From IMG/VR virus record IMGVR_UViG_3300009008_000215, positions 1 through 26,165 of that record: a DNA stretch of 26,165 nt, one strand, 5' to 3'. This document shows positions 12,316-20,933 of this stretch, piece after piece. The notes under the pieces are model-generated. The model was given only the letters and a program-made list of their open reading frames with translations. It was not told the origin of the DNA and did not search any database. Both the position numbers and the translations under genes were made by a program. Numbering within the stretch: position 1 is the first letter of the stretch; each line of letters starts with the position of its first letter. This DNA comes from a virus.

Positions 12316-12323
12316 TATTTATA
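12316..12323 (-). promoter_or_regulatory. T4-type late promoter box for hsp20
   Basis: Exact TATAAATA overlapping the stop of the dNMP-kinase gene. The start point would be near 12310, exactly where the first leader hairpin begins. No TTGAC-type promoter is present here, so hsp20 appears late-expressed. Confidence 0.6.
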
Positions 12324-16886: not shown

Positions 16887-17319
16887 CATCTAATTCCCAT
16901 GGGAATACAATCCACTCTCCGTCATGCGGTCTCGTATAACTACAATCAACGTCATTATCTTTGCCAAACAATACCCAAGGCTTTACATACTGTTCAGGAT
17001 GCTGTTCAACGAGCCATTCTTTCACTTCTGTAATTGTCTTACCTGAATCGTAAATATCGTCTACCACAACAAACGTATCAAACGATTTTGACGTGTTCAA
17101 TAACCATGTAGGCTCTTTGCAGCAACCATCTCGTGTTTGAAACTTAATGATAGACATATCAACGTCAGGAAGGATGTTTGATAAATGAACAGCAATAGGA
17201 AGCGATCCTCTATGAATACCAACAACATTTACGTTATGACCTCGCTGAATCAACATCTCAACGTATTGTTTAATCGCAAACACGTCGTCTAAATAATCTT
17301 CATGCGCATAATAATACAT
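16870..17319 (-). CDS. Phosphoribosyltransferase
   Basis: 149 residues from ATG 17319, which has GGGGGA 7 bases upstream; an ATG 15 bases earlier overlaps the queE coding end. FVVVDDIYDSGKTITEV is the PRPP-binding loop of type I phosphoribosyltransferases, and NVNVVGIHRGSLPIAVHLS is the first strand and loop with the non-proline cis peptide region. It most resembles purine (hypoxanthine/guanine/xanthine) enzymes. A normal salvage role is likely; its position between queE and queD raises the possibility that it acts on a deazapurine. The hood domain is too short to tell specificity. Confidence 0.8.
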   Translation of the reverse strand: MYYYAHEDYLDDVFAIKQYVEMLIQRGHNVNVVGIHRGSLPIAVHLSNILPDVDMSIIKFQTRDGCCKEPTWLLNTSKSFDTFVVVDDIYDSGKTITEVKEWLVEQHPEQYVKPWVLFGKDNDVDCSYTRPHDGEWIVFPWELDVDSAW

Positions 17320-17321
17320 TT

Positions 17322-18176
17322 CTACGTCCCCCATGAATTACCAAACAAATTAATGTGTAAACGCGGGGAGAATTTATATCCATAATTCATGCAGATTTCT
17401 GCTACACCTCTTTCAGTCAACTCTTGTCCTTCAAGTGTTGCGCCTTCTGGCATTAGAAACACGTCTTCAACATCAACACCAGCGTCACTATAGTCTAATT
17501 CTGCATCATACACTTCTCTAATATCCTCAAAGTCACGTACAACAAACTTCAAGTTGATAAAAGAGTTTTGTACCTCATTCATCGATAACAACGCATCTGG
17601 ATCAATAGTTACGCTTTGATCTTCGCCTGTGAGGGATAGTTTAGGACTTACCATCCACGTAACTTCGATGTCACGGTTGTTTAAGTATTTTGCGAATGCT
17701 GGATCTACCTTTTTCGTGCCATTAGTTTCAAACGTAAGATGTGCTAAATCATCAAACTCTGGTTGGTCCAGTAATTCGATATACGCTTTTTGCCAACCAA
17801 GCAAAGGTTCTCCACCAGTAATCACAAGATGTACGTATTCATTGAACCAAAGATTATCAGGTAGCGTGTTATTAAGTGCTATTGCTAAATCTTCTGTTTC
17901 AGCAAAAGGAGCAAGATGCTTATATCGTTTACTCCACGCAGCAGAAGAGTCACAACCAATGTCCACTACTGGTAAATCTTCAACTGATTTAATATTATCC
18001 AGAGGAATTGTCATATGAGGCATTTCTTCTTCTGGGATATGATTATCTCGTGGCTGTCCAAATCCAGCACAAGTTAAATTACATCCAAAAGTCCTTAGGA
18101 ACACTGAGGGAGTCCCAACCCATTTCCCTTCACCCTGTACAGAGTAGAAGTATTCAGAATATCTGATTTTATCCAT
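17322..18176 (-). CDS. queE: 7-carboxy-7-deazaguanine synthase-like radical SAM enzyme, QueE
   Basis: 284 residues. YSVQGEGKWVGTPSVFLRTFGCNLTC is QueE-like up to the second cysteine of the iron-sulfur loop (Cys32, Cys36), but the third Cys of CxxxCxxC is missing: AGF follows. GCDSSAAW at 74-81, resembling the canonical CDTxxAW, supplies Cys75 after an insertion of about 38 residues. VITGGEPLLGW (GGEP) binds SAM, and LTFETNGTKKVD and WMVSPKLSLTG follow. It makes CDG from 6-carboxytetrahydropterin. No queC is present in the window, so the product may be used as CDG. Own promoter plus a leader element shared with gp44. Confidence 0.88.
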   Translation of the reverse strand: MDKIRYSEYFYSVQGEGKWVGTPSVFLRTFGCNLTCAGFGQPRDNHIPEEEMPHMTIPLDNIKSVEDLPVVDIGCDSSAAWSKRYKHLAPFAETEDLAIALNNTLPDNLWFNEYVHLVITGGEPLLGWQKAYIELLDQPEFDDLAHLTFETNGTKKVDPAFAKYLNNRDIEVTWMVSPKLSLTGEDQSVTIDPDALLSMNEVQNSFINLKFVVRDFEDIREVYDAELDYSDAGVDVEDVFLMPEGATLEGQELTERGVAEICMNYGYKFSPRLHINLFGNSWGT

Positions 18177-18180
18177 TTAT

Positions 18181-18200
18181 TTCTCCATTATATAAAAATT
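18181..18200 (-). promoter_or_regulatory. Conserved 20-nt leader element, queE copy
   Basis: AATTTTTATATAATGGAGAA immediately before the queE start region; same element as upstream of gp44 and the dpdA-like gene. Confidence 0.6.
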
Positions 18201-18233
18201 AAATTACACGTAAACCTTCACCTCTCAATTTAT

Positions 18234-18262
18234 ATTATACAACAATGTCGATGGAAGGTCAA
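18234..18262 (-). promoter_or_regulatory. Sigma70 promoter for queE
   Basis: TTGACC (18257-18262), 17 bp, TATAAT (18234-18239). The -35 overlaps the regA stop. The leader is about 50 bases. Confidence 0.85.
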
Positions 18263-18675
18263 CGCTGTTTTATGCCAATATTATACTTAGGGCAAAGTTC
18301 CCAATTGTGCTTGTCTTTATGAGATATGATCTTGATTTGATTTAGGGGGGCAGTCTCTTCAATTGGATCTACAGTTTCAAGTAGTCCCCAATCTGACATC
18401 AATTGTACAATTGTATTTCGACGGCCAATGTCATTCTTCGTTAGGTTAGACGGTTTGCCATCCAACAAGAAGAGTTCTTTAAAATGTGTAATGAAGTACC
18501 TACCTTGCTTATGTAATATATGACAAGACTGATACAATTTGGAGTCTCTCTTTGAAGCGACTCCCATTCGTGTTAGGGTTTCTCTGATCTTTAGAAAATC
18601 GTCTGGTTGAGATAGGACAACTTCTAACATCATATCGGGGTTCCAATCAACCAATTCGTCGTTTTGTTCCACCAT
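18259..18675 (-). CDS. regA: RegA translational repressor
   Basis: 138 residues (T4 RegA 122). Matches T4 RegA along its length: QPDDFLKIRETLTRMGVASK, LYQSCHILHKQGRYFITHFKELFLLDG, then a segment ending KHNWELCPKYNIG. RegA binds AU-rich translation-start sites of early mRNAs, including gp44/gp45, and lowers their translation. The gene follows gp62 as in T4, but here after a 182-base gap holding a gp62 remnant and a late promoter. N-terminus (about 14 acidic residues) is longer than in T4. Confidence 0.93.
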   Translation of the reverse strand: MVEQNDELVDWNPDMMLEVVLSQPDDFLKIRETLTRMGVASKRDSKLYQSCHILHKQGRYFITHFKELFLLDGKPSNLTKNDIGRRNTIVQLMSDWGLLETVDPIEETAPLNQIKIISHKDKHNWELCPKYNIGIKQR

Positions 18676-18782
18676 GATTTATTCTTTCCTTAATTATATT
18701 CAATTCATTATTATTGAAAAGAGGAAGAACATTCTGATACTTTATTCCATTTAGAAAATCTTTTCCTCTTTCTCACAATATT
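18662..18782 (-). pseudogene. Decayed second copy of the gp62 3' end
   Basis: The gap between gp62 and regA, read on the minus strand, encodes NIVRKRKRFSKWNKVSE and, after a +2 frame change, NNELNIIKERINHGGTKR. These match the intact gp62 parts NIIRKRKRFSKWNKASE and ETELSFIKTKLDKGGSNK in the same order; about 22 residues between them are missing. The two nucleotide copies use mostly different synonymous codons, so it is not a fresh duplication but a fragment of a divergent gp62. The remnant runs into the regA start, as an ancestral overlap would. Confidence 0.75.
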
Positions 18783-18786
18783 TATA
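18779..18786 (-). promoter_or_regulatory. T4-type late promoter box before regA
   Basis: Exact TATAAATA about 105 bases before regA. It overlaps an inverted repeat at 18783-18804 (9-bp arms TATACAAAT, loop 4). A second hairpin (18845-18867, 8-bp arms CAACAAAT) spans the gp62 stop. Confidence 0.5.
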
Positions 18787-18857
18787 CAAATGCCAATTTG
18801 TATAATAGATATAAGATGGATATCACGAGGCTTAGGTATCATAACAACAAATGTAAA

Positions 18858-19238
18858 TTATTTGTTGGACCCTCCCTTATCTAACTTAGTTTTTATAAAA
18901 GATAATTCTGTCTCTGACAACAGATTACTAACATCCCGGGCCTTTTCATTTGAGTAACCATAGTACTCTTTGATAGCTTTAATATCATTAGACTCGGAAG
19001 CTTTGTTCCACTTCGAAAAGCGCTTTCGTTTTCGTATTATATTAAGAAGAAAATCCATTTGCAGGCGTGGGTCAAGATGGGACTTTAAATTCATCTCATT
19101 AGCATACAAGACCGTGTCAGGGAAATAAGAAAGGCCGCGATTAACCATAAAGGCTGGATAGTCCTTCTCATTTTCTAAGATATCTTTTTTATTTACATTG
19201 ATTGCATTGAGATAATCAAATGGATTCTTAGTACCCAT
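18858..19238 (-). CDS. 62: Clamp loader small subunit gp62
   Basis: 126 residues, shorter than T4 gp62 (187). FDYLNAINVNKKDILE at the N-terminus, FMVNRGLSYFPDTVLYANEMN in the middle and LLNIIRKRKRFSKWNK match the gp62 pattern of marine T4-like phages (T4: FNYL...PRGKRYGKW). It joins gp44 in a 4:1 complex loading gp45. The ATG overlaps the gp44 stop (TAATG), matching the T4 arrangement. Next door is a remnant of a second gp62. Confidence 0.85.
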   Translation of the reverse strand: MGTKNPFDYLNAINVNKKDILENEKDYPAFMVNRGLSYFPDTVLYANEMNLKSHLDPRLQMDFLLNIIRKRKRFSKWNKASESNDIKAIKEYYGYSNEKARDVSNLLSETELSFIKTKLDKGGSNK

Positions 19239-20170
19239 TATTTAAACTGCCCTTGAGCCATAATCTCCGTAAGACAAGCAACGGTGTTGATTTCATGATC
19301 TGCAACAAATGCATTCTTATATTGATATTCTGCAATTACAAGAACCAGTTGTGGTATGTAGCTTGGCTCAACATACTCTAACATATTGTCGTAGATCATT
19401 CTATAGATCTTTGCAGGCTCCATATCAATATTATCACTAACCCATTTACGCATTCCTTTGAAGTTCTTTTTCTTTAGATCCTCCATAAGGCCTTTAATAG
19501 AGGACTCAGACAAGGAGACTAGAATACCTGAGTCAATAGAACCTGACATACCATAACGTTGACATTCATTAATAACTCTTCGCCAGTCAGGGATATATTT
19601 CATAATTAATTCGGCGAGGACTGGATCTTCATACTTCACTTCTTCCTTTGTTAGGATGGTTTGAAGTCGACCCATGAATTGACCAGCAAGTTCAGCCTTA
19701 TTACCTATGTTGAATTCATATACAGAACATCTCGAGTGGAGGGGCTCAATAATACGGTTCTTAAAATTACAAGTTAGGATGAACCTACAATTGTTTGAAA
19801 ACTCTTCGATGAAACCACGAAGAGCTGGTTGAGTAGATTGGGGGTTTAGATAGTCTGCCTCATCAAGAATGACTACCTTATAACCCCCCTGGAGGGAAAC
19901 AGTTGAGGCGAACTGTTTAATTTTACCACGAAGTGTATCAATGTTTCCGTCCTCCGAACCATTAACAATGATATAGTCGAGATCAAGTTCATTACATAGT
20001 GCACGAGCAACAGTAGTTTTACCTACACCAGCTGTGCCTGTAAACATCATATTAGGAAGTTCACCAGAATCAACAATCTGCTTAAATGTATCTTTTAATT
20101 GATTAGGCAGTACACACTCATCAACAGTAGTTGGTCGGTACTTTTCAACCCACAAGAACTCATCTCTCAT
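19238..20170 (-). CDS. 44: Clamp loader large subunit gp44
   Basis: 310 residues (T4 319). LWVEKYRPTTVDECVLP opens the AAA+ domain; Walker A GTAGVGKT at 45-52, Walker B VVILDEAD near 100, sensor FILTCNFKNRIIEPLHSRC with the SRC arginine motif, and DWRRVINECQRY in the lid. It is the ATPase that opens the gp45 ring. Own promoter inside the end of the DsbA-like gene, plus the conserved leader element with GGAG. Confidence 0.96.
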   Translation of the reverse strand: MRDEFLWVEKYRPTTVDECVLPNQLKDTFKQIVDSGELPNMMFTGTAGVGKTTVARALCNELDLDYIIVNGSEDGNIDTLRGKIKQFASTVSLQGGYKVVILDEADYLNPQSTQPALRGFIEEFSNNCRFILTCNFKNRIIEPLHSRCSVYEFNIGNKAELAGQFMGRLQTILTKEEVKYEDPVLAELIMKYIPDWRRVINECQRYGMSGSIDSGILVSLSESSIKGLMEDLKKKNFKGMRKWVSDNIDMEPAKIYRMIYDNMLEYVEPSYIPQLVLVIAEYQYKNAFVADHEINTVACLTEIMAQGQFK

Positions 20171-20893: not shown

Positions 20894-20926
20894 AATAATG
20901 TCCTACCAAAATGGTAGGACATTATT
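20894..20926 (-). repeat. 15-bp perfect palindrome with 3-base loop
   Basis: Arms AATAATGTCCTACCA and its exact complement, loop of 3, between the 73-residue gene and the 78-residue gene, immediately downstream of a late box. No U-run follows on the minus strand. Confidence 0.75.
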
Positions 20927-20933
20927 ATTTATA
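20926..20933 (-). promoter_or_regulatory. T4-type late promoter box
   Basis: Exact TATAAATA, 50 bases before the 78-residue gene. The 15-bp palindrome starts at its downstream edge, so the hairpin would form at or near the 5' end of the transcript. Confidence 0.55.

Follow-up and report, generated by a model that had tools for sequence, protein, structure and literature searches.

The window analysed here is the whole of a 26,165-base virus record from a marine T4-like phage, which carries on its minus strand the genes for regA, gp62, gp44, gp45, DNA polymerase, UvsX and a helicase, as well as QueE, QueD and GTP cyclohydrolase genes. Our subject is the gap of 182 bases (18676-18857, minus strand) that separates the stop codon of gp62, at 18858, from the start of regA, at 18675. 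The locus is made up as follows.

18259-18675, minus strand: regA, the translational repressor (phrog_242, E 1.7e-57)
18647-18730, minus strand: gp62 remnant, piece 2, VLPLFNNNELNIIKERINHGGTKRRIG followed by a stop, after a 59-nt deletion and a frame change
18686-18691, minus strand: AAGGAA, a Shine-Dalgarno-like sequence of regA with an inferred function, inside piece 2 and present in many relatives
18732-18785, minus strand: gp62 remnant, piece 1, INIVRKRKRFSKWNKVSE, from a protein search and alignment to relatives
18779-18786, minus strand: TATAAATA, a match to the T4-type late-promoter consensus, 111 nt before the regA start
18782-18805, minus strand: perfect inverted repeat of 10 bp around a 4-nt loop, which overlaps the promoter box
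18787-18833, no strand assigned: linker that does not significantly resemble gp62, regA or any endonuclease C-terminus tested
18834-18857, plus strand: antisense RYHNNKCK, like the last residues of phage homing endonucleases, abutting the gp62 stop codon (18858-18860)
18858-19238, minus strand: intact gp62, the small clamp-loader subunit (phrog_225, E 3.1e-43)
19238-20170, minus strand: gp44, the large clamp-loader subunit, overlapping the gp62 start (phrog_168, E 7.5e-120)

The gap sequence is identical in contigs of four other records of the same virus (L001-L003 and L085), and an assembly error is therefore an unlikely source. A survey of gap sizes covered 79 loci, of which L001-L003 belong to the window's virus, with one locus lacking regA (L018) left out. 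In 73 of the 76 other loci gp62 and regA overlap or lie less than 10 nt apart, and in the remaining three (L059, L062 and L065) they are separated by 36-41 nt. A megablast search of positions 17000-20000 against phages returned no match. Since Rfam and tRNA scans of the window found nothing and the folded leader is unremarkable (z -1.40), a structured RNA in the leader was set aside. Directly after regA, between 15498 and 18176, the window carries QueE, phosphoribosyltransferase, QueD and GTP cyclohydrolase genes; QueE was matched in nine of the fetched relative loci and QueD in two (L035 and L036), many loci ending early.

The sequence-only reading had seen in the gap two segments of a second gp62 C-terminus, in the right order and separated by a frame change and an internal deletion, and the analysis bears this out. 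When the whole record is searched with the gp62 protein, the gap is the second match (18723-18818, E 2.1e-8), and, aligned to the gp62 of the window itself, it scores 97, above all of 1000 dinucleotide shuffles, the best of which reaches 45; the resemblance is thus not that of shuffled sequence. Piece 2 begins one base after piece 1 in a different frame, 59 nt are missing between the two in comparison with L035, and piece 2 overlaps the regA start as the gp62 genes of relatives do. Moreover, piece 2 resembles the gp62 of relatives and not the present gp62 of the window: it scores 89 against eight relatives (best shuffle, 46), and 40 against the window's gp62, a score equalled by 2 of 1000 shuffles. 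The gap is a gp62 3'-end pseudogene, significantly similar to gp62, in order, and unreadable as one frame. When the gap was compared with phages by BLAST, the matches listed (15 of 42 records) included gp62 of DSL-LC02/LC03 (E 4e-3), S-SKS1 (E 1e-2) and S-SCSM1 (E 7), the other matches listed being weak and scattered (E 0.05 to 7). The protein match to gp62 extends to 18818, 11 codons upstream of the box, with that part alone no better than shuffles; a gp62 or regA remnant in the 5' part of the gap was rejected for the same reason.

The two copies of the gp62 end differ in a way that informs on their origin. The peptide RKRKRFSKWNK is identical in both, as the earlier reading had noticed together with its mostly different codons; indeed, 8 of the 11 codons differ, all synonymously and 7 of them at the third position. 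Over the whole of piece 1, 14 of 18 codons differ between remnant and intact copy, 11 synonymously, and this mostly synonymous divergence implies two functional genes that evolved apart in separate genomes. In piece 2, 18 of 20 codons differ, 5 synonymously and 13 with an amino-acid change. At the DNA level, the remnant is closest to L036 (96 of 114 aligned nt shared); the nt shared number 75-96 of 114 for the clade of the window (19 distinct sequences), 65-75 for a further 18 sequences that are more distant, and 65 for the adjoining intact gp62, which ties for the lowest value among the 38 distinct sequences. The tree, although weak, agrees, the remnant grouping with L036, L040, L042 and L030 (support 90/93, not starred). 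From these comparisons, the copy left beside regA appears to be the resident's gp62 end.

One alternative is that the 3' end of gp62 was duplicated in tandem in this lineage and that the roles then split, the upstream copy losing the promoter and the regA start and the downstream copy keeping these two but losing its coding function. This would fit with the intact copy having changed where constraint is double, namely in the promoter codons and in the regA-overlapping tail. A tree in which the remnant and the intact copy are sisters is not formally rejected either (p 0.117 with both pieces, 0.093 with piece 1). However, such sisterhood costs 6 to 13 log-likelihood units, and the low identity of the two copies sets them apart from the range within the clade. 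Furthermore, all residues of piece 1 belong to the repertoire of the clade, with 18 of 18 matching L014, whereas amino-acid changes would be expected to accumulate in a copy under decay. We regard this history as very improbable. Another alternative is a plain replacement without an endonuclease, in which gp62 or its 3' part would have come from a related phage, recombining by homology on its upstream side and joining illegitimately on its downstream side, with a passive and young relic as the result: it is the remnant, and not the intact gp62, that groups with L036, L040, L042 and L030, and the synonymous character of the piece 1 differences places the divergence of the copies in separate genomes. 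This second possibility is weighed below against the remainder of the locus.

The extent of the exchange can be followed along the intact gp62. Its first 64 codons are 68.0% identical to six clade members, vs 67.4% among those six; the next 18 codons are somewhat low (72.5 vs 79.6%), the following 22 normal (76.3 vs 72.8%), and the last 22 abnormal (50.2 vs 75.2%). Within the intact gp62, the clearly foreign part would thus be the tail only. The earlier proposal that gp62 was replaced, perhaps with gp44, by recombination with a distant relative holds in part: the resident 3' end was apparently exchanged and the old end left beside regA, as the 96 against 65 shared nt of 114 indicate. The distant donor, however, is left without support by the normal first 64 codons and by the gene tree, which places the intact gp62 and its neighbours in one clade. 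An exchange of gp44 is likewise unsupported, the gp44, gp62 and regA trees being mostly unresolved and too weak to prove a discordance of gp44 or regA. Searches for the donor of the tail gave the same virus only with a degenerate peptide pattern, a best non-self identity of 75% with a 58-residue query from the C-terminal half (best 80 of 592 relatives), no relative in the contig search, and at best 12 of 19 residues (S-MS29 and L006/L007) among 157 distinct tails in 275 fetched loci. The intact gp62 has no in-frame TATAAATA, the codons at the site being CTT CTT AAT ATA.

The sequence-only reading did not mention two features of the gap, a conserved box upstream of regA lying in the remnant and the signature of a homing-endonuclease C-terminus. 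Position 72 of the gap, where its DNA similarity to the best-matching relatives sets in, coincides with the opening base of TATAAATA. This octamer equals the late-promoter consensus published for T4 and cyanophages (PMC2984593); NATAAATA is the form given there for cyanophage S-PM2. As TATAAATA is present in 6.8% of dinucleotide shuffles of the gap, the weight of the box rests on its position, not on its mere occurrence. The window contains six copies of TATAAATA on the gene-carrying minus strand and none on the plus strand. One of them (20897-20933) is intergenic, followed by a strong hairpin and upstream of a 78-aa ORF, and another, at 12323, lies at the 3' end of the dNMP kinase gene, 94 nt before the Hsp20 gene, as a second box embedded in a coding end. 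Among the late-transcription factors gp55, gp33 and gp45, gp45 alone was found in the 30 window proteins scanned, the record probably being a fragment.

In relatives, the box coincides with the gp62 codons for (F)LINI, in frame and upstream of regA. Codon usage was scanned with the amino acids fixed and the codons free, over at least 119 loci with 113 unique ORFs, reduced to 78 genes at less than 90% identity. Among the matches listed, the ATA codon is used at the box in 77 of these 78 non-redundant genes against a background of 33.9% (P 3e-35, related genes being counted as independent), and AAT likewise in 77 of 78 against a background of 71%; TATAAATA occurs in 74 and NATAAATA in 77 of them. 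The next conserved Ile codon, in the same 78 genes among the matches listed, is unconstrained (37 ATA, 23 ATT and 18 ATC). The box in the gp62 of relatives is under strong synonymous constraint, beyond what coding needs. At the same site, 13 of 24 reference phages have NATAAATA, six have CTAAATA, where the residue is Leu, and five (MED4-213, P-HM1, S-WAM1, S-CRM01 and Vibrio D506) have neither form in gp62, and the in-gene box is therefore not universal. Where Leu occupies the site, its codon is CTA in 9 of 10 reference records, against a background of 15.4%; CTAAATA resembles the late consensus of phage Aeh1 (PMC2988020).

The position of the box relative to regA is also preserved. In 43 loci, identical stretches having been dropped, exactly one NATAAATA lies between the gp62 and regA starts, at 170-173 nt from regA in 33 loci, 176-179 nt in 7 and 42-47 nt in 3. 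Forty of these boxes are inside gp62, and three are in the short gap of L059, L062 and L065. In these last loci, TATAAATA stands just past the gp62 stop, within the 36-41 nt gap, and the in-frame gp62 box has been lost, as shown for L059. Another set, which shares loci with the first, comprises 61 loci with identities under 90%, taken from 156 after removal of one that lacks regA and one that lacks the core. Within gp62, NATAAATA is present in 55 of the 61, CTAAATA in four and neither in two; in the latter two, L059 and L300, the box is in the gap before regA instead. In S-CRM01 (L221), where regA is about 2.8 kb from gp62, CCTAAATA precedes the regA start by 32 nt. Across these loci, the box is tied to regA and not to gp62.

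The box might persist in the window for no other reason than the recency of the relic, regA being expressed from upstream transcripts and needing no promoter of its own, a view compatible with any of the origins considered. The gap does not vary between contigs, T4 has no TATAAATA in its gp62-regA stretch, with only TATAAATC there, and 5 of the 24 reference phages lack the box in gp62. Against this, a box is present upstream of regA in all 43 loci, and in lineages such as L059, L300 and L312-L314, whose gp62 lacks it, it sits outside gp62 and before regA. We consider recency an unlikely explanation for the retained box.

The second feature of the gap is best understood from another locus. In L300 (676-2223), the order is an intact gp62 without the box, an antisense HNH homing endonuclease, a second gp62 3' end and regA, and it is the second 3' end that carries TATAAATA, 170 nt before regA. 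The endonuclease ORF has 171 residues, its stop overlaps that of gp62, and it matches phrog_655 (homing endonuclease, E 6.1e-18), the Pfam HNH and NUMOD3 scores falling just under the curated cut-offs; its C-terminus is RYHGLSGEKCPN, not RYHNNKCK. The two gp62 3' ends of L300 are identical at 58 of 63 nt in their middle part, differ beside the box in 9 of 19 codons (7 synonymously) and in the tail in 20 of 22 (11 synonymously). L300 has a duplicated-target architecture, with an intact gene, an endonuclease and a displaced native 3' end. In L312-L314, an endonuclease 58-59% identical to that of L300 occupies the same place in the same orientation; gp62 has no box, TATAAATA is 78 nt before regA and GATAAATA at 198, and gp62 and regA are 702 nt apart in all three. 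No second gp62 piece was seen in L312-L314. The sequence-only reading had counted an intact gene unrelated to gp62 in this gap as evidence against a remnant. Such loci do exist, but in L300 that gene adjoins a gp62 3' fragment, and it therefore explains the remnant rather than refuting it.

In the window, the corresponding place is held by the antisense peptide RYHNNKCK, the reading of which possibly reaches back to 18816 (MDITRL...). The peptide occurs only once in the window. A scan for RYHNN[KN]CK, made after the fact with a pattern taken from the window peptide itself, gave 16 stretches, four from the window's virus and 12 others, of which nine are in ORFs longer than 60 residues and three in ORFs of 32-33 residues. 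In all nine long ORFs the motif ends 2-9 residues from the stop, and eight of the nine match homing-endonuclease families (phrog_314 or phrog_655), the ninth matching only a family of unknown function. An HMM search with the short window peptide gave no match, and no catalytic domain, HNH or GIY-YIG, is left in the window gap. Prior to the motif scan, the 5' part of the gap had been aligned to six endonuclease C-termini without a significant result, 246 of 500 shuffles doing as well. The window endonuclease is presumed to be a remnant, not a gene. Phage endonuclease genes are often encoded near or within essential genes (PMC10448857).

These observations bear on the plain replacement introduced above. 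An antisense endonuclease-like peptide at the gp62 stop is not predicted by it, nor are the parallels of L300 and L312-L314, nor a DNA similarity that starts on the promoter box, and we think it improbable that replacement without an endonuclease produced the locus. We rather consider it probable, given the two-copy structure, the conservation and position of the motif, the parallel loci with an endonuclease and the endonuclease-like peptide, that the gap is a scar left where a homing endonuclease inserted at the junction of gp62 and regA, and that what survives there serves as the late promoter and leader of regA. Compared with L300, the window appears to keep the gene order but with an eroded endonuclease.

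The likely course of events would be as follows. In the ancestor, the end of gp62 would have overlapped the regA start, as in most relatives, and the T4-type late promoter of regA, TATAAATA, would have been inside the gp62 reading frame. An element made of a replacement gp62 3' end and an antisense endonuclease, presumably moved by homing, would then have inserted near the box. The order would now have been an intact chimeric gp62, the endonuclease, the native gp62 3' end in its displaced position, and regA. Decay would have followed, sparing only the last codons of the endonuclease and removing 59 nt from the middle of the native fragment, while the promoter box, the Shine-Dalgarno sequence and the regA start survived. 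The 59-nt segment held neither the box, piece 1, the Shine-Dalgarno nor the regA start. As the survivors of the native end are precisely these and the loss took no signal, we infer that the relic acts as promoter and leader of regA. Selection would have retained all three signals, most likely because regA could not be expressed late without them, the activity of the promoter being predicted from its consensus and position.

A more specific version of the insertion scar can be put forward tentatively. The term home-and-rescue belongs to the gene-drive field. The element may have been of this kind, its endonuclease targeting the gp62 segment that contains the regA promoter and the element itself carrying a recoded gp62 3' end resistant to cutting, with the displaced native end being domesticated as a free-standing promoter and leader of regA. 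In L300, the intact and displaced copies differ mostly synonymously beside the box and in nearly every tail codon, with a largely identical middle. It is conceivable, at somewhat less than even chances, that two functions once fused in one DNA stretch were separated in this manner.

The closest counterparts that we found are mobile ORFs of fungal mitochondria (Allomyces macrogynus atp6; Glomus atp6, atp9, cox2 and nad3), which duplicate gene 3' ends (PMC3630166). As in the proposed history, an inserted C-terminus is joined to the resident gene, together with an endonuclease ORF and a displaced native C-terminus; there too, it is the native end that stays nearest to relatives, the inserted one having changed to a greater extent in DNA than in protein (PMC3630166). 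In contrast, the present case concerns a phage, and the endonuclease is antisense and reduced in the window to a short remnant. Furthermore, the displaced end of the window carries the promoter box and the start of the next gene, which is not described for fungi in the part of that source available to us. The free-standing homing endonucleases of T4-like phages (seg and mob) are similarly intronless, reside in T4-like genomes and co-convert their flanks (PMC2988022), but in L300 the gp62 3' end is duplicated around the endonuclease. As for T4-type late promoters, the same octamer lies upstream of a phage gene, and the phage encodes gp45, in T4 the clamp responsible for activating late transcription (PMC2984593); the difference is that in relatives the box lies within the gp62 coding frame. 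A survey of 16 cyanophage genomes, as far as its available text describes, kept only late promoters that were intergenic or overlapped the upstream gene by 10 bp (PMC3037559), and would for this reason have missed a box in gp62. Among the titles and opening abstract lines listed for the literature searched, in which subscription journals are thinly covered, none pointed to a promoter within gp62 or to an endonuclease at the gp62-regA junction.

The conservation of the box suggests that many marine T4-like phages may control the translational repressor RegA from a late promoter hidden in gp62, and hidden promoters of this type would be missed by surveys restricted to intergenic regions. The loci compared here can be read as successive steps in which a selfish endonuclease could separate a gene from the promoter it overlaps, and a relic that resembles junk may be regulatory.
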